From: Janthinobacterium sp. 61
GTDB lineage: Bacteria > Pseudomonadota > Gammaproteobacteria > Burkholderiales > Burkholderiaceae_D
DNA length: 64,000 nucleotides
Direction: 5' to 3'
NCBI RefSeq assembly: GCF_002846335.1
Contig: NZ_PJMQ01000001.1
Coordinates: 2,480,001-2,544,000 of the forward strand
Every line of letters begins with the position of its first letter. The first letter of the stretch is position 1. This document shows, in pieces, positions 4,012-55,044 of the stretch. Under the pieces are notes generated by a model. The model made no database searches, was not told the DNA's origin, and worked only from the letters and a program-made list of their open reading frames with translations. The position numbers were made by a program, and so were the translations under genes.

Positions 4012-4509
4012 TTATTCTGGCTTCAAGTCCTTCAGGGCCGCAAACGGCGACTTCTTTTCAGTCTTGAGAGCATCGAGCTGCGCCGTATCGGGGCAGACGT
4101 CGTGTTTGGGTACCTGCGGCAGGGCCAGCAAGGCTTCATCTTCGATCAGGGCCGCGGCATCCATGCTGCGGCTGCCGACGATCACGTCGATCGTTTCATC
4201 GTTGATGATTTCTTCGATCTCGTCCGCGTGCTCGTCATCCTTGCCCAGCATCAGAGTGGTCGTCGAATCAATTGCGTAAGCATACGGAGTCAGGCAGCGC
4301 TGGCAAACCAGCTGAACGGTGCCGTTGACCGACAAGGTCAGTTGTGGGTAGCCCAGCTTGCTGGTGCCGCCGACGATCTTCCAGGCGATCTCGCCGGAAG
4401 CATCTGCACAATCCTTGGTCAACCGGGTCATTTCAGCGACAGGAGTTACACCCTCGCGGCTCCCGCTGATACGACAAAAATCAAAGGCGTCGATCACAAA
4501 AGCATTCAT
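4012..4509 (-). CDS. yceD: YceD family protein (DUF177)
   Basis: DUF177 proteins are encoded beside rpmF in many bacteria and in plants are needed for 23S rRNA accumulation, so a ribosome-assembly role is likely but is inference here. The start at 4509 (MNAFVIDAFDFCR) gives 165 residues, the usual length; the in-frame extension to 4614 is not supported. The paired cysteines of LVCQRC near residue 72 and the C-terminal SPFAALKDLK motif are characteristic. It is divergent from maf, with a 235 bp intergenic region that must hold both promoters. Confidence 0.9.
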   Translation of the reverse strand: MNAFVIDAFDFCRISGSREGVTPVAEMTRLTKDCADASGEIAWKIVGGTSKLGYPQLTLSVNGTVQLVCQRCLTPYAYAIDSTTTLMLGKDDEHADEIEEIINDETIDVIVGSRSMDAAALIEDEALLALPQVPKHDVCPDTAQLDALKTEKKSPFAALKDLKPE

Positions 4510-4744
4510 TGGTAGAAAATTTCCCCGGAAAACCTGCGATAATAACAGGGTTTTCAGCACCGAGTCAAAGCCTAAGCATCTTTTTTGACGCAATGATTGC
4601 CGTATTCGTGACAAACTCAGTTATAAATTCATCAACACCGTCATGCCGCATGGGGCCTCAGTTAGGGGCTCTGCGCCCTGGAATTTGCGTGAAATTCCAC
4701 TGACATCGACCAGTGCGGCCATGCCGGCCGCCATCCACTACCGA

Positions 4745-7576: not shown

Positions 7577-8008
7577 ATGCACAGCCTGACCCTCACGACC
7601 GATAACCGCGCCGATGTCGCGGCAGCCCTGGCCGGCCCACGCTGGACGGTGGCCTGCCTGTGCGCGCTGTGGTGCGGCACCTGCGGCACTTACCGCGCCA
7701 CGTTCGAGGAACTGGCCGCGCGCCACCCGGACACCGTCTTCGTCTGGATCGACATCGAAGACCAGGCCGATGTGGTGGGCGACCTCGACATCGACAACTT
7801 CCCCACCCTGCTGATCCAGCGCGAGAACAATGTGGCTTTCTTCGGCACGGTGCTGCCCGACGGCGGCCTGGCGCACCGCATGGTGCAGGCGCAGCAGGCG
7901 CTCAGCGGGGACGAACTGGCGGCGCTGGCCAGCAGCACACAGGAGCGGCGCGACTGGCAGCGCGACTGCAATTTGCGCAACATGCTGGCCGCCACCCTGG
8001 CACAATAA
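7577..8008 (+). CDS. Thioredoxin-fold protein with CGTC active site
   Basis: A 143-residue cytoplasmic protein with the thioredoxin pattern: ALWCGTCGTYR puts the redox pair at Cys33 and Cys36, followed by FVWIDIEDQ and the cis-proline motif NFPTLLI near residue 76. No signal peptide. The active site is CGTC rather than CGPC, expected to change redox potential, so it may be a specialised reductase rather than housekeeping thioredoxin. It is convergent with the hydroxylase gene, only 3 bp away. Confidence 0.8.
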   Translation: MHSLTLTTDNRADVAAALAGPRWTVACLCALWCGTCGTYRATFEELAARHPDTVFVWIDIEDQADVVGDLDIDNFPTLLIQRENNVAFFGTVLPDGGLAHRMVQAQQALSGDELAALASSTQERRDWQRDCNLRNMLAATLAQ

Positions 8009-48423: not shown

Positions 48424-48813
48424 GGCGTTTCCTTGCTGAAGGTGAACTGGGCAATCGGTGCCTCGTCCCTGCGACGGGTGACGGCACACAAAATCGACAC
48501 GCTGGCGAAAAAATAGTTCCTCTAGAATATCAATAAATAATGAAAATGCAAAAAGTGACGGGCAAAACGGCGTGATCGATGGCATGCACGCAAGACTGGC
48601 ATTCTTTCCAACTATGTCTGATTGACCTGTCCGCCGCTGGCAGACTACGGCACGTCAAGACGTTAAATCACCTGATAGCGGCTGTCAGCGCAAGTCTGCG
48701 CGACGACACCTGATACGCCAGTGCGCTTTCGGCCGATTGCTGTCCTTGGCTGCTTTCGCCCCATAGCGGACTGCCATTCCCTGGCTGCAAATTGATGCGG
48801 CCTAGGAACGCGA
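48424..48813. other. Intergenic region holding the left-most attC-like repeats
   Basis: 390 bases without a supported gene. The left 180 are featureless and AT-rich; the right part contains the attC-like repeat at 48606-48668 and a second related segment at 48720-48780 (GTGCGCTTTCGGCCGATTGC and GGCTGCTTTCGCCCC). Confidence 0.5.
48606..48668 (-). repeat. attC-like site B
   Basis: Reading the minus strand, it begins ATTTAAC (RYYYAAC) and ends GTTGGAA (near GTTRRRY), 63 bases. Inner CTGCCAGCGGCGGACAGG matches site A. It follows the stop of the 166-residue gene, where a cassette recombination site is expected. Confidence 0.55.
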
Positions 48814-49314
48814 TTAGAAGACCACTAGCGTCCCATCAGGTAACAGACCACATGGCCAATTGCCGTCGCGATAATTCATCAAAGCGTCAAACCAAAAACT
48901 AGGTTGGGCATTCAAGACTTCCAAGGTAGCCATCCGCACACAATAGATTGCCGAATCTTTAGCCGCTTGTGTGAAGTCGTTCGCCCCAGAGAAAATCGTC
49001 CTGTCGGGCACCACCCTCAATGATTTCAATGCCAACTTGTAGGACTCCAAGACTTCTTGCTGGTACGCAGCTCCATTGTCCTTCAAGATGGTCCTGAGGT
49101 ACTCTCCATGGATCGGGTCGGGTTGATCGCGGGAGCTGGGCAGCCAGTCCATATCTGAAGCAATTTTTGCTAAGCTAGTGTCTAACTCCGCTGGGAAGCG
49201 TGGCCTGTCCCAGGCACTCAAATTCGGGAGAGCTATTTGGCCTTCGCTAGGGTGATAGCTACCTAGTGCGCTAAACCACTGGGCGTTAACGACTGCATGT
49301 CTTATTCTGTCCAT
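48814..49314 (-). CDS. Hypothetical cassette protein (166 aa)
   Basis: 166 residues, acidic, no signal peptide or transmembrane span, starting MDRIRHAVVNAQWFSALGSYHPSEGQIALPNL, an all-alpha pattern with GEYLRTILKDNGAAYQQEVLESYKLALKSL in the middle. An AAGAGG ribosome site lies about 10 bases upstream. No family recognised. It is AT-richer than the surrounding genome and sits between attC-like sites C (before it) and B (after it). Confidence 0.7.
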   Translation of the reverse strand: MDRIRHAVVNAQWFSALGSYHPSEGQIALPNLSAWDRPRFPAELDTSLAKIASDMDWLPSSRDQPDPIHGEYLRTILKDNGAAYQQEVLESYKLALKSLRVVPDRTIFSGANDFTQAAKDSAIYCVRMATLEVLNAQPSFWFDALMNYRDGNWPCGLLPDGTLVVF

Positions 49315-49333
49315 TAATCAACCAGCCTCTTAA

Positions 49334-49471
49334 GTCCAAGCATTTTCTACAAGGCCAGCTCCCGCAGCGATAGAGTCATGCTCTGCGCTTACGTGACTGG
49401 CCGGTTTTGGCCGGTTGCCGCTGTTGGCGGGGTCCGCCCCAAAGCAGACATTCATGACACGACCGTTAACT
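49334..49471 (-). repeat. attC-like site C
   Basis: 138 bases on the minus strand from AGTTAAC to CTTGGAC. Both ends are one base off the RYYYAAC and GTTRRRY consensus. The inner part carries the shared CCGCCAACAGCGGCAACCGG segment, with GGCCAAAACCGGCCAGTCAC. It lies just upstream of the 166-residue gene. Confidence 0.45.
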
Positions 49472-49558
49472 TCCACCCAAGAGGACACGCAAGGCAGGGC
49501 TCACTTGGCGGAAACGCTGGCACAGATGGAGTGCCTTCTTGGTTGCGGAACCGGCTTA

Positions 49559-49927
49559 CTACCACGGTTCAAACTCCAGTCCCGCGTAGCGTTCATGGTT
49601 TGCACCGATGGCGAATGCCTTTTCAATCCACGCTGAGCTTTCACCGATCGTTATAACTACAGTAAATGAGCCTCCCCGAGCGGGTACTGGAAAGTCCACT
49701 GCTACGATCTGCAAGAAACGTGCGTCGTCTACATCGTCAGGTATTCCGTCAATGAAAAAAAACTGAACAGTGTAGTCCTCCTCATCGATTAGCCCGAAGA
49801 AATTGCCTTGAACGCCCCTGCCATCTGCCCAGTGATTGAGCGCTTCGTTAAGCGTTAAATCGCGCGCTGCGGATGATTCCACAACGTCTTCCAGGTCCTG
49901 CCAGTATGCTTTCATTGTATGAACCAT
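49559..49927 (-). CDS. Hypothetical cassette protein (122 aa)
   Basis: Three ATGs in a row precede the gene; the third (49927) has the best ribosome-site spacing (AAAGG, 6 bases). The product of 122 residues is acidic and alpha/beta: MVHTMKAYWQDLEDVVES, NHWADGRGVQGNFFGLIDEEDYTVQFFFIDGIPDDVDDARFLQIVAVDFPVPARGGSFTVVITIGE. The fold pattern recalls immunity proteins of contact or polymorphic toxins, but that is only an impression. It begins 26 bases from the edge of attC-like site A. Confidence 0.68.
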   Translation of the reverse strand: MVHTMKAYWQDLEDVVESSAARDLTLNEALNHWADGRGVQGNFFGLIDEEDYTVQFFFIDGIPDDVDDARFLQIVAVDFPVPARGGSFTVVITIGESSAWIEKAFAIGANHERYAGLEFEPW

Positions 49928-49952
49928 CATCATCCTTTTCGTGTCGCTTGAG

Positions 49953-50050
49953 GTCCAACGCGGTAGCACATCGCAGCTCTAGCTGGGCGCGGTCACTGTC
50001 CGCTCCTGGCCGCTTGCCGCCGTTGGCAGCCCCCTACGCGGACGTTAAAT
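49953..50050 (-). repeat. attC-like site A (best preserved)
   Basis: 98 bases on the minus strand starting ATTTAAC (RYYYAAC) and ending GCGTTGGAC (GTTRRRY), both exact. The inner arms GTCCGCGTAG and CTACCGC are partly complementary. The segment GGCAGCCCCCTACGCGGACG (plus strand) closely resembles the end of Vibrio-type attC sites. It lies between the 81-residue gene (stop 11 bases away) and the 122-residue gene. Confidence 0.6.
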
Positions 50051-50060
50051 CATCGTTTAG

Positions 50061-50306
50061 TTATTCTACGAAAGACAAGGTGCGAACTGCCTGTTCGCTG
50101 CACAGGAATGCTCCTATTTGGTCCTGCGCCGAAGGTGAAAGACCGCTGTATTCTTCGTCCAGCCACGATGTGGCAGTAGCGGTATCCCAAGGGCCGAGTG
50201 AAGCCATGTAGTCATCATACTCATCTTGAATCTCACGCCAAGACGCATACGGTTTCCTAGAAATCAGTACTTCTTTTCTAGTCAGGATAATGTGCACTTC
50301 CGTCAT
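50061..50306 (-). CDS. Hypothetical cassette protein (81 aa)
   Basis: 81 residues, acidic: MTEVHIILTRKEVLISRKPYASWREIQDEYDDYMASLGPWDTATATSWLDEEYSGLSPSAQDQIGAFL. The ribosome site GGGGA lies 8 bases upstream. No family recognised; the size and shape fit small cassette or immunity-type proteins. Its stop codon is 11 bases from attC-like site A, the arrangement expected for an integron cassette read on the minus strand. Confidence 0.65.
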   Translation of the reverse strand: MTEVHIILTRKEVLISRKPYASWREIQDEYDDYMASLGPWDTATATSWLDEEYSGLSPSAQDQIGAFLCSEQAVRTLSFVE

Positions 50307-50359
50307 GAAATATCCCCTATAGAATGCGCTTCACATACGCAAACCAAGTGTCTGCTCTT

Positions 50360-51596
50360 GGCTGCGGATTCAATCGGTCAACGCAACACACTGTTCAAAT
50401 CGTTGAGCCGGTGTTTGGTAGTGTAGCGTCTTCCTGGGGCGCTCGTTTAGTCTTCTGGCTACCGCATCGAGTTGCTCTTGCGAATACGTGGAAATATCCA
50501 ATCCCTTGGGGAAATACTGGCGCAACAGGCCATTGGTATTTTTATTTGAACCGCGCTGCCATGGATTCTGTGGATCGCAGAAGTAGACCTGGATGTCGGT
50601 GGCCAACGTAAAGCGTTTATGCCCAGCGAGCTCGCTGCCGCGATCCCAAGTCAGTGACTTCTATAGTTCTTGGGGTAGCCTGCGGGCATTGTCGATCAAT
50701 GCGTTGACCACCGTTTCGGTATTCTTCGCGGCGACCTTTATCAGCATGACATAGCGCGTCTGGCGCTCAACCAAGGTCACGATCTGGCTGTTGTGGCTGC
50801 CGCATAGCAGGTCGCCCTCCCAATGCCCGGGCACCGCTCGATCCGCTGCCGTCGCTGGACGCTCGCTGATCGACACGGCGTCGACAATTCTGCCGTGGTT
50901 GTCCGTCTTTTGGGTGTGATGACGTGAACGGCGCATGGCGCGCGTCCGGCGTAAATGCTCCAGCAGCTCCTTCTTTAGGGCGCCTCGGGCCTGGATGTAG
51001 AGGCTGCGGTAAATGGTTTCGTGCGACACGTGATACTCCTCGTGGCGCGTGAACAGCTGCTTGAGCCAGCCAGCAATCTGTTCCGGCGACCACTGCAATT
51101 GGAGCTTGCTGGCAACCATGTTGGCCAGCATGTGGCTCTCCGTCAGCTTACAAGGTTTGGGGCAGCGCGCCTGATCCCAAGCATGCTGATCCGCCTGGAT
51201 CGCACGATATGTTTCGCGGCCACCATTGCGCCTGAGTTCCCTGCTGATGGTCGATGGTGCTCGGCCAAGGCGCCTGGCAAGTGCGCGGATGGATACGCCG
51301 GCAACGACGGCACGCGAGACCTCCTCGCGCTCGGCCAGTGTCAGCGCCAGTCTGGAACGGCATCGCGGCGCTGGCCGTATGCCACCAGATTCGGCCAGAA
51401 TCCGCTGTATCGACGAGTGATTCCGATCAAATAGCTGGGCTATCATCTGCAGGGAGTCGCCATGTTTCCAGCGCTCCCACATCAAGGCCTTCTGGCTCTC
51501 GGTGTAATAAATGCGTGGTTTCTGTTTCATCTTCAACACTCCTGTAACCTGGGCGTTTAGGTTAGAGTGTTGCGACCACCGATTGAATCCGCAGCC
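50360..51596 (-). mobile_element. IS30-family insertion sequence (inactive copy)
   Basis: About 1,237 bases bounded by inverted repeats: GGCTGCGGATTCAATCGGT at the left and its complement ACCGATTGAATCCGCAGCC at the right, followed inward by CGCAACAC on both ends. No clear target duplication was found. The transposase gene inside is broken. It is inserted in an attC-like repeat. Confidence 0.85.
50370..51530 (-). pseudogene. IS30-family transposase, amber stop and catalytic Glu lost
   Basis: Start at 51530 (MKQKPRIYYTESQKALMWERW, helix-turn-helix), after an AGGAG site. The frame stays open past residue 280 but contains TAG at 50661-50663 where [18 protein letters not shown] is expected; reading through it, the same frame continues to QYFPKG and the natural stop at 50370. 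The first Asp (HWEGDLL) and second Asp (TWDRGSE) are intact, but the third catalytic residue is Lys in [13 protein letters not shown] where IS30 enzymes have ENTNG. Full length would be about 386 residues. Confidence 0.88.
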
Positions 51597-51694
51597 GGTG
51601 GCCGTCGTTGACAGTTTACCCGGTCATTGACCTGCAAACAAAGCCGACCGGAATTGTTGAACAAATCCGGCTTGGCGCGAGTCCGCTCAGAAGG

Positions 51695-52873
51695 TCAGGA
51701 TTTTTGCGGCAAAATCAGGCCGCTTTGAAACGCCAGCTTTATATCCCTTTCGTGCGAGTAGGCGAAAGATTCCCAAACCTCCCCCGCTTGAAGCTTAGTG
51801 AATGTCTCAATGATATTACGCCGCCACGGGGATGGTCTGGAAGCGACGTATCCATTGAAAAATCGCTGCGCCTGGTCTTGGGTTCCGAAGCACAACAAGA
51901 ATGACAAAGGGGTAGGCGTTGGATCGCAAATGGCGGGAAAACCGCCCCCATACAACGCAAGATGTTCAAGCGCCTGCGGGCGATCGGCGAACAAAGAGAA
52001 CAGCGGCAGGGTGCGTTCGGTGAGCAACTGGCACATCTCCTCGATCGAGGAACGCGCTGTCAAACCCGCCACCTGCCAGATAATGGCGCTGAGATTTTTG
52101 TCGGGCCGACGTAACCCACCAAATAGAACGAAGCCATCGTAACCGGTTCCGGTCCCTCTCTCCGCAAGCCACCTTTTAAGAGCTTTGCTGGCGATGGAAA
52201 GGTCGACCGTCATGCGAACATCGCTGCGGGAATTATAGCGCTCGGACTCGAAGGATACCTGGAAAACAGTGTCCTTATCGGCAGCCATCTTCTTCCAAAC
52301 GGTTCCTGCTTTGTTGGGTTTAAAACCATGCGGCGCGAGAAATTTCCCGACCTCTTGGCAAGCATGAAGAAACTGGGTTTTTGGATCTCGCTGACGGTTG
52401 GCGGGATCGGCCGACCACGCTTGCCATTGGCTGAAGCGCTGGTCGAGGATGGGTTTCAGTTGATCGAATTTCTCCCAGGTATTCTGGACGTGATAGACGC
52501 TGCCATACTCAAAGCCATGCGCGGCGGCGTGGCGGTTGAATACGTCACAATAGTCTTGCATAAAGCTGCCATGCTGTTGGGCGAATGTCGACTTTTCATC
52601 GTAATAGTCAACGGTGAAAGCATTGCCCTGATCGTTGAGATCCTCTTCCCATAGCTTGCCATCGCAAGCATCGATCAGAAATTGAAGTCCGGTAATTTCC
52701 CGACTTGCCAGACGCCTTAGCTCCTCGGGGGAGTCTGTGCGGTGGAAATCGCTCGCCATATCCTGGCTAACCAACCAGGCCAAGAACATGCCGATATGGA
52801 TGCCGCCATTTTCTTCCGGCAAATCATCGGGATATTTCCCGCCAGAATGCCAATCAATCCTGTCATACGCCAT
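51695..52873 (-). CDS. Hypothetical protein with DUF7832- and DUF4304-like regions
   Basis: 392 residues, no signal peptide. The N terminus YDRIDWHSGGKYPDDLPEENGGIHIGMFLAW resembles the DUF7832 opening; around residues 170-260 the pattern FLAPHGFKPNKAGTVWKKMAADKDTVFQVSFESERYN resembles DUF4304. Both are found in proteins near toxin-immunity clusters, but neither has an assigned activity; the family reading is from memory of sequence patterns. It is large for a cassette gene. Its stop is 33 bases from the outer edge of attC-like site E. Confidence 0.68.
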   Translation of the reverse strand: MAYDRIDWHSGGKYPDDLPEENGGIHIGMFLAWLVSQDMASDFHRTDSPEELRRLASREITGLQFLIDACDGKLWEEDLNDQGNAFTVDYYDEKSTFAQQHGSFMQDYCDVFNRHAAAHGFEYGSVYHVQNTWEKFDQLKPILDQRFSQWQAWSADPANRQRDPKTQFLHACQEVGKFLAPHGFKPNKAGTVWKKMAADKDTVFQVSFESERYNSRSDVRMTVDLSIASKALKRWLAERGTGTGYDGFVLFGGLRRPDKNLSAIIWQVAGLTARSSIEEMCQLLTERTLPLFSLFADRPQALEHLALYGGGFPAICDPTPTPLSFLLCFGTQDQAQRFFNGYVASRPSPWRRNIIETFTKLQAGEVWESFAYSHERDIKLAFQSGLILPQKS

Positions 52874-53138
52874 TGTGCAAACCTATAAAAATATCTAAAT
52901 AATAACTCTTAGTTGCTCCAGCGCAATTTCCAGCGTGCTTGGTAACGCCCTGATCTGGGTAGTGGACGTCACTTATCCGCCTCAGAGTATCCTAATTATC
53001 TTTGCTTTTCTCAGTCCGCTATTGGCCGGTTTCGGGCGCTCGGAATGGCTCAGCGCACGAAACTGTGACCCTCATGGCTGGCAAGGGGTTTTGTTCGGCG
53101 CGCCAAGTCTTCTCCCTGCTATTTCCGCTCTCCGCCAT
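52874..53138. other. Right boundary of the cassette-like region
   Basis: 265 bases, no gene. A further copy of the repeat core, CAGTCCGCTATTGGCCGGTTTCGG, lies at 53012-53035; its outer ends cannot be placed with confidence. The chromosome-type DUF4153 gene begins right after. Confidence 0.45.
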
Positions 53139-54983
53139 TTACATGGCCGGCGCGGTTTCATCCGGGCAGCTGACCTCATCCTCTTGTGTATATAAGGTCA
53201 TCGGCACGCGCTGGCCGTCGACTTCCAGCTCGCGCACCTTCGGCGGCACCAGCTGGAACTCGCCCGCCTGCAGTTTCTCGCGCAAGGGCTTGCAGCGCAG
53301 GGCATCCACGGGGATTTGCCCGCGCGCAGTCCAGCTGCCATCGTCCTTTTCCGCCAGCAAGACCGACGAGGCGCGCGGGTCATTGCTGATCAGCAACACA
53401 TCCTGCTTGCCATCTCCATCGAAATCGAGCAGATACGCATCGCACTGCGGCCCTGCCCGCTTCAAACAGGCGGGCAAACGCCAGGCCGGACTCACTTGCG
53501 TCCAATCCTGGCGCAGGAAACTCTCCGGCAGCTTCGCCGTGGCCGGGCGCAGGGTCAGGTTGATCGACACGTCGCTCAGCGCACCCGTCTCGTCCAGGCG
53601 GTTCTGGCGCTTGAGCATGGCCTCGGCGCGGGCCCGCACTACTGCTGCGTCAGCGCCGGTCGTGCGTTTCGTCAATTCCTGCAGGGCCGCCTGGCCATAG
53701 CGGGCACCCTGGAAGCGCAGGTATTCGAAATCGAACTTGTCCACGCCAACCTTGCCGCTGTCCAGGCGCGCCATCTGGCTGGCCACGGAAATGCGCGCCG
53801 GGTCCGCCAGCGGCGAGAACAGCGCGAACAGCACCAGCAGAGTGACAAAGGCGGTGGCCACGTTGACGTTGGCGATCAGGTGCAGCCAGTCGCCATACTT
53901 GCTGGCCGCCCACGCATAGCCGGCGGCGTAGCAGGTGGCGACCAGCAGGCAGGCGGCAGCGATGAGGCGGTCGGCCGTCCAGCCATGCGACATCACGCGC
54001 AAGGTTAGCGCATAGATGGCGATGCCCACCACCCATGGCAGCAACAGGCAGGCCAGGCGCGTGCCCAGGCGGATGCCGCGCGCCACGCCATGGCCCACTT
54101 CGCCATTCTGGAAGGCGGCATTGATCAGTACCACCAGCACGCCGGCCATGCCCAGCAGCACGGACGCCGCATGGCGCGTGGCCCACAGGCGCTCGAAACC
54201 GATGAAGGGCAGGGTCAGCAGGAAGCCGGAGACCAGCACGGCGGCGATCGGCATCAGCCATGACAGCAGCACCAGAAGCAAGGTGCGGATGCCGCGCACG
54301 ATGGACGGGCGCACGTCGGTGATGTGGATGGCAAACGAAAACGCGAAGCAGATGACGGGAATCACGAACCAGGCCTGGCCCAGCAGCTTTTTCAGGAAAC
54401 TGAGCTTGATCAGCAGGAACAATTGTCCGCCCAGCCACAGCACCAGCCACAGGCCCAGCACGAACAGCAGGGAAAACAGCAACTGGATGCCCAGCTTCCA
54501 GGCGATTTCAAAATAGGTGGGATAGCGGGCGATGCGCCGGCCATCCTGGGCGCTGGCCAGCACCAGGGCATGGGCGATATACAAGCCCACCACGCAAAAA
54601 CCGAACAGCTGGGCGGAAATCACGCGCAGCGGTGCGCCCGGCTTGTAATTGCCCCAGATCACATGCTCGGCGCCGCGCGCCACGTCATGCCAGGCCAGCA
54701 CACCCAGCACGACGGCCGCACCGGCCATCCACAGGGCGATGCGCCGGAGCGACATATGGCCCAGGCTGGAGACCAGCAGGATGGGCAGCAGCAAGCTGAT
54801 CAGCATCAACGGGCCAAGCAGGTAAGCTTCCGTGGCGGGCCACACCTTGTCTTGCGCCGTGCTGTACAGCCAGTACAGCAGCAAGCCTTGCAGCAGGCCC
54901 GTCACCAGGCGCGTCACCGCGATGCGCGGCGCCACCACCGGATCGAGCAACGCCATGTTTTTTCCTGCGGCATCCTGCTGCAT
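53139..54983 (-). CDS. DUF4153 membrane protein
   Basis: About 614 residues with 11-12 predicted spans in the N-terminal 400 residues, then a soluble C-terminal domain (FDFEYLRFQGARYGQAALQEL, DFDGDGKQDVLLISND, an integrin-like calcium-loop motif). This matches the DUF4153 layout. I prefer the ATG at 54983 over 54989 because its spacing from AAGGG is better. Role unknown; a membrane-associated sensor or transporter is possible. It is separated from the cassette-like region by a repeat core. Confidence 0.8.
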   Translation of the reverse strand: MQQDAAGKNMALLDPVVAPRIAVTRLVTGLLQGLLLYWLYSTAQDKVWPATEAYLLGPLMLISLLLPILLVSSLGHMSLRRIALWMAGAAVVLGVLAWHDVARGAEHVIWGNYKPGAPLRVISAQLFGFCVVGLYIAHALVLASAQDGRRIARYPTYFEIAWKLGIQLLFSLLFVLGLWLVLWLGGQLFLLIKLSFLKKLLGQAWFVIPVICFAFSFAIHITDVRPSIVRGIRTLLLVLLSWLMPIAAVLVSGFLLTLPFIGFERLWATRHAASVLLGMAGVLVVLINAAFQNGEVGHGVARGIRLGTRLACLLLPWVVGIAIYALTLRVMSHGWTADRLIAAACLLVATCYAAGYAWAASKYGDWLHLIANVNVATAFVTLLVLFALFSPLADPARISVASQMARLDSGKVGVDKFDFEYLRFQGARYGQAALQELTKRTTGADAAVVRARAEAMLKRQNRLDETGALSDVSINLTLRPATAKLPESFLRQDWTQVSPAWRLPACLKRAGPQCDAYLLDFDGDGKQDVLLISNDPRASSVLLAEKDDGSWTARGQIPVDALRCKPLREKLQAGEFQLVPPKVRELEVDGQRVPMTLYTQEDEVSCPDETAPAM

Positions 54984-55044
54984 AGTCATTCCCTTAAAGT
55001 CGTTTATTGCTGTAAAGCACGGCCATTATTGCATTTCGTTATCG

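Follow-up and report, generated by a model that had tools for sequence, protein, structure and literature searches.

The DNA considered here is a stretch of 64,000 nucleotides from Janthinobacterium sp. 61 (G000:C1:2480001-2544000, hereafter the window), the genome of which is 6.0 Mb long and lies in a single contig. Between a DUF4153-like gene and a VOC gene it contains an array of small genes, read on the minus strand and separated by copies of a repeated site, which we regard as probable mobile cassettes (Table 1). An initial annotation, made from the sequence alone, described four minus-strand open reading frames (ORFs) of 166, 122, 81 and 392 aa; these are confirmed, that of 122 aa starting within an ORF of 136 aa. 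They were said to belong to no family, or to a tentative one, which holds for the 166- and 122-aa proteins (no Pfam match) and the 81-aa protein (one sub-threshold match, E 0.24), the 392-aa protein being assigned to DUF7832. A second copy of the 392-aa gene occurs in G031 (L046), there without a recognisable site boundary. The DUF4153-like gene is present in 43 of 100 genomes searched.

Table 1. Features of the array region, followed by a recombinase gene from a long array region in another genome (positions in the window unless a locus is given).
Feature	Position	Strand	Basis
DUF4153-like gene for a membrane protein; conserved, anchors the hotspot on its 5' side	53139..54989	-	sub-threshold Pfam DUF4153
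5' leader, terminating in half-site GGCCAATAGCGGAC (53027-53014)	53014..53138	-	weak model match, E 0.36 (53032-53014)
392-aa gene with DUF7832	51695..52873	-	Pfam
5' part of site, interrupted by IS30-like element	51594..51620	-	weak match, E 0.007 (51620-51594)
IS30-like insertion sequence inside GGCC of a site	50363..51593	-	HTH_38 (Pfam)
3' half of the split site, GCCAAGAGCAGACACTT	50346..50362	-	reading of the insertion sequence flank
81-aa cassette gene	50061..50306	-	ORF
Site A, junction near 50006	49996..50052	-	48.3 bits; plasmid copy diverges there
122-aa cassette gene	49559..49927	-	ORF; start inside a 136-aa ORF
Site C	49397..49458	-	67.4 bits
166-aa cassette gene, predicted RhsI2 homologue	48814..49314	-	profile and fold match
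Final site of array, after the 166-aa gene	48719..48780	-	63.2 bits
3' flank, partly common to G038 and G018; contains 'site B' of the initial annotation (48606-48668)	48600..48718	-	L042/L050 match to 48771-48772
606-aa tyrosine recombinase, DUF3701 and Phage_integrase	L170 4495-6312 (G922, 156-kb contig)	-	long array region

The separator site is about 60 nt long and has the form GTCYGC-centre-CGGCCA|RNAGCRGAC, with inverted arms; the consensus of the repeat is GTCCGCTTTGGGGCGGAACCTGCCAACGACGGCAACCGGCCAGAAGCGGNC. Three full copies in the window (50052-49996, 49458-49397 and 48780-48719) score 48-67 bits, above chance, and all five window matches of an earlier repeat model fall in the array region on a single strand. 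The shared core that had been proposed is present at sites A and C, with partial, weak copies at the end of the leader and next to the insertion sequence (IS). What had been called site B is not a copy: neither repeat model matches it, and the site after the 166-aa gene is that at 48780-48719, the last of the array. Nor are 50347 and 51597 separate copies of the core, as had been supposed; they are the two parts of a single site that the IS30-like element interrupts. When the arms of 20 sites are paired as a hairpin, 75.7% of cells pair versus 74.6% after shuffling, and the arms show no covariation.

The window is one of many places where such sites occur. There are 12 site matches in the same genome at E<=0.1, and the site is found in 30 of 40 Janthinobacterium genomes at E<=0.001, in strand-coherent arrays at several loci. 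Scanning of a genome collection with the long site form gave 14 stretches, 13 from Janthinobacterium and one, judged by eye to be chance, from Wenzhouxiangella. Altogether 98 site matches were collected from 38 sources, and the 83 that are 50-75 nt long are referred to as mapped sites. All such sites lie on one strand in 22 of the 23 loci with at least two of them; the exception, L044, has a weak match that overlaps a site on the opposite strand. Between consecutive same-strand sites less than 2.5 kb apart there are 46 intervals, in which ORFs were sought within the interval plus 10-20 nt. The longest ORF is on the strand of the sites in 43, on the other strand in two, and one interval has none. 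Where a same-strand ORF is present (44 intervals), the distance between the last stop and the following site is -11 to +102 nt; in 42 of these intervals the first start comes 5-103 nt after the preceding site. Dispersal of the repeats over the genome, which the initial annotation had named, for repeats away from such genes, as a finding that would speak against it, is seen, but the dispersed copies are in strand-coherent arrays that bracket small ORFs. As a separate observation, L213 (J. lividum plasmid p356839) encodes WP_176386522.1 twice in one array (4462-4737 and 7686-7961), a duplicated cassette.

Comparison with relatives identifies the window locus as a variable one. Thirty-one relatives were fetched, and in the 29 for which the spacing between the DUF4153-like gene and MotA was measurable it ranges from -14 to 8414 nt, being less than 200 nt in six; in the window it is 5142 nt. 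One relative (L052) has about ten small ORFs here, all on the same strand. Many relatives have in common the leader after the DUF4153 stop and then diverge at the half-site. A regular expression for the half-site matched 17 of the 31, six of these being matches to the leader text itself (L043, L044, L045, L047, L051, L054), which leaves 11; several of the remaining relatives have, by eye, a degenerate half-site. Cassette gain and loss between relatives, proposed initially as something to look for, is seen when the gene content of the locus is compared, and gene order is not vertically conserved.

That cassettes move is shown by comparison between loci and genomes. The same cassette is present at a locus at 1.10 Mb in the same genome and in the hotspots of G018 and G020, and cassettes are likewise common to different loci of G034 and G029, and of G037 and G039. 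The 166-aa cassette of the window is also at another locus of G015 (L123; 94.8%), a 102-aa cassette occurs in loci of the Janthinobacterium sp. 61 genome, G020, G034 and G015, and the 122-aa cassette is carried by the J. lividum plasmid NZ_CP139977.1 (98.8% over 581 nt), where the match begins at GC(G/A)GCCAGGAGCGGAC. At the right junctions (14 comparisons, of which two are reciprocal and two have an IS in the other copy), the centre remains with the upstream cassette and identity falls after CGGCCA, with 9-17 of the next 40 nt identical; on the other side, 7-33 of the 40 nt that precede the left junction are identical (19 comparisons, one of them the IS). The queries in these two sets were cut at the junction, so that what is measured is a drop in identity and not a free alignment end, and this counts as a point against the reading preferred below; in the first cassette comparison, which included the 1.10-Mb locus, and in the plasmid comparison the queries were not cut. 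The repeats might instead be terminators or elements of the repetitive extragenic palindromic type, with no role in movement, in a horizontally acquired cluster. This would suit their location directly after stop codons, but we consider it very improbable, as the identity of moved cassettes falls within the repeat and the neighbours vary by locus.

The array had been interpreted as an integron-type one of the kind known as CALIN (clusters of attC sites lacking integron-integrases). In its general form, an array of cassettes without an integrase in which gene and site orientation agree, that interpretation is supported; it is the attC sites that are not supported. In one account the attC site is a palindrome between RYYYAAC and GTTRRRY cores (PMC3053210). 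GTTRRRY is found near the 3' end of one of the 83 mapped sites, and the junction is CGGCCA|RNAGCRGAC rather than G|TTRRRY. The RYYYAAC and GTTRRRY ends reported for site A are exact and form the sole such pair (35-120 nt apart) in the 64 kb; a first-order Markov control gave a mean of 3.3 such pairs counted on both strands, or about 1.65 distinct, so the pair is at chance level, and it lies apart from the cassette junction. attC is not among the Rfam matches of the window. Integron integrase (intI) was found in none of the 40 Janthinobacterium genomes at E<=1e-40, with no match over the cut-off in the Janthinobacterium sp. 61 genome; as positive controls, the model gave 387 bits in G094 and matches in 18 of 155 family genomes. 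The attC reading was rejected because the core motifs are at chance level and the junction is a different one. A true integron remnant with degenerate attC sites would account for the form and orientation of the cassettes, for a genome without integrase and for the ends of site A, but against the core counts, the junction and the absence of intI from the genus it has a very low probability.

Related sites evidently form arrays in other Oxalobacteraceae, as judged from half-site patterns. The long form of the site is found at E<=1e-4 in two of 399 genomes of the order, that of Janthinobacterium sp. 61 included. A 17-nt half-site pattern matches 75 of 155 family genomes, in which single matches may be due to chance, since a reversed control matches too. 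Loci of G922, G910, G100, G834, G858, G905 and G056 have several half-sites each, nearly all on one strand and with other centres, and the reversed-motif control gave zero in 39 of 40 loci. In another family of the same order, G094 has two full sites, with a centre of their own, around a small ORF. In L146 (769-10529) of this genome, sites of the Janthinobacterium type are interspersed with two attC-like repeats and the gene of a true integron integrase. In G1061, which belongs to the same class, the half-site matches seven times, always on one strand and again with a centre of its own; the 18-mer GGCCRARAGCGGACATTC occurs in two of 274 genomes, one of which is G1061, with its array. The pattern TGTCCGCTTYGGGN{12,41}AGCRGACRTT matched none of 398 genomes including that of Janthinobacterium sp. 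61; it is too strict and hence uninformative.

The sites are also associated with IS elements. The element in the window, which we take to belong to the IS30 family, is flanked by GGC and GCC, indicating insertion in the GGCC of a site. Its transposase ORF is interrupted (51539-50661 and 50606-50370), and this copy looks inactive. An IS30-like element is also located at a site in G029 (94.7%). Ten of 20 matches to the right end of the IS read as abutting site sequence: twice in the window, once each in L048, L051, L111, L119 and L128, and three times in L130. A second repeated and apparently noncoding element, starting with GGGGCGGAAGCGGACGGTRCCATT, was observed in L122, L120, L119, L052, L057, L060, L061 and L212; it lies at cassette or array edges, and some copies end like the right end of the IS30-like element. 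A further observation is that the half-sites at L150 2599 and 6415, L149 132, L154 17327 and L156 6664 are preceded by an end of the form GTTTTTACAC(A/G)G. In L150 and L154 these half-sites adjoin a large transposase-like ORF, perhaps of another IS family that targets the site, presumably an IS1182-like one. Elsewhere in the window, the sole Rfam match at the gathering score is a flavin mononucleotide (FMN) riboswitch (RF00050, 29789-29939, plus strand, 119 bits).

The search for an enzyme that would act at the site gave no recombinase. In the Janthinobacterium sp. 61 genome the integron-integrase model matches only two phage integrases, XerC and XerD, all named by eye. A phmmer search of the fetched Janthinobacterium array loci, in which IntI, XerD and two phage integrases served as queries, detected no tyrosine recombinase, and no recombinase beyond IS transposases was recognised by eye among the listed clusters found in at least three genomes (864 ORFs, 59 loci). 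Of the genomes outside Janthinobacterium with arrays, G858 carries intI on a contig other than that of the array, and none of G922, G910, G100, G834, G905 and G056 belongs to the 18 genomes with a match. A candidate for a common enzyme of the arrays was the DUF3701 tyrosine recombinase of G922, which lies in the array region on the same strand. It was rejected, as near-full-length relatives occur at nine places in 155 family genomes and the others are without arrays: of the eight other copies (L191-L198), only that in L192 is accompanied by half-sites, one per strand and far apart. Moreover, it was not found in the Janthinobacterium sp. 61 genome at E<=1e-30, and the sole sampled Janthinobacterium that has it, G013, has no site match. 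We therefore regard a general role of this protein as extremely improbable. Searches of the open-licence PMC literature brought up no recognisable description of this site or of arrays built on it.

The 166-aa protein of the window gives whole-length profile and fold matches to the immunity protein RhsI2 (PDB 8cm0, 9t38), at about 20% identity, and on this basis is predicted to be a homologue of that type VI secretion system (T6SS) immunity protein. Apart from the low identity, it differs from RhsI2 in that its gene sits in a cassette array and not beside a toxin; no toxin domain was found in the neighbouring array genes scanned. Barstar, Tdi1, CdiI_2, Imm32, Imm35 and SUKH domains are present in a minority of array proteins, and PADLOC matched three models, with one member each, among 56 array proteins. 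For the 122-aa protein there are 14 homologues.

Taken together, these comparisons make it probable that the window holds a chromosomal hotspot with an array of mobile cassettes of one gene each, exchanged by site-specific recombination at CGGCCA|RNAGCRGAC and with immunity genes among its payload. A cassette would consist of RNAGCRGAC, a same-strand ORF and then GTCYGC-centre-CGGCCA; it would probably be circular, and be inserted and excised at the junction by a site-specific recombinase provided in trans. The payload would include antidotes to toxins injected by competitors, that of 166 aa being of the RhsI2 type. In form the system would resemble an integron, and in payload the recombinase-associated acquired interbacterial defence (rAID) arrays of Bacteroidales. 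We give about even chances to the wider proposal that this is a second, integron-independent class of cassette recombination, based on a GTCYGC/GCRGAC inverted-arm site with crossover at CGGCCA|RNAGCRGAC and on an undescribed, perhaps core-encoded, recombinase acting in trans, that occurs with differing centres in Oxalobacteraceae and a few other genomes of the class and accumulates immunity and accessory genes.

Several further results weigh against this interpretation. No recombinase was found, and in what is a comparison of sequences neither circle nor excision was observed. Single-strand DNA folds of nine sites, on both strands, are unremarkable (z -2.5 to +0.9), and the two ends of one cassette are no more complementary to each other than shuffled sequence is (p 0.45 core, 0.33 outer), the values for ends in situ being p 0.94 (core) and 0.025 (outer). 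In G1061 (L210 12246-19640) eight genes are all on the strand opposite to the sites, unlike in Janthinobacterium. Most array proteins belong to no family, and enzymes are among those that do, so the payload is not confined to immunity, and the model of the 122-aa protein has no PDB match at E<=0.001. Finally, the break lies in the centre, before CGGCCA, at three right ends (c6, c27 and c43) and in the plasmid copy; in c27 and the plasmid copy the second repeated element follows. These early breaks could be produced by homologous recombination between dispersed repeats of about 60 nt, aided by IS elements and DNA uptake, which would shuffle genes with no recombinase sites being involved. The repeats are similar enough to pair, and the missing recombinase and the arms without covariation agree with such an origin. 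However, homologous exchange should scatter the breaks, whereas the 14 right-junction comparisons drop after CGGCCA, and the cassettes hold one orientation; we judge it unlikely. If recombination is indeed site-specific, the question posed is which enzyme moves the cassettes where the examined genomes of the genus are without integron integrase. Arrays on a site other than attC would be missed by the usual searches based on attC and intI; the present site supplies a signature to search with, its hotspot is available both empty and filled, and its arrays form a store of likely orphan immunity genes.

The likeness to integrons and CALIN lies in the co-oriented one-gene cassettes, the site of about 60 nt with inverted arms and its junction at the 3' arm, and, as in CALIN, in the lack of an integrase gene. 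The attC site, like this one, has lineage-specific centres, and it is targeted by IS elements of the IS1111-attC group, comparable to the IS at the present site. The differences are the missing GTTRRRY and RYYYAAC cores, the other junction sequence and the lack of intI throughout the genus sample; a less clear difference is that the arms show no covariation and the single-strand folds are unremarkable, where an attC site folds into a hairpin with extrahelical bases. By description, there is also some resemblance to p-dif modules, in which genes are framed by short recombination sites and moved in trans by the host recombinase XerCD; p-dif sites, in contrast, are XerC/XerD sites. The rAID arrays of Bacteroidales, according to PMC12247911, have a tyrosine recombinase upstream, co-oriented short genes (about 100-300 codons), a conserved intergenic motif and orphan immunity genes. 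Compared by description only, the two systems have in common the co-oriented short genes and the presence of a conserved intergenic motif. The Janthinobacterium arrays differ in belonging to another phylum, in having no tyrosine recombinase at the array, in a mixed payload that includes enzymes and in their presence at several loci per genome.

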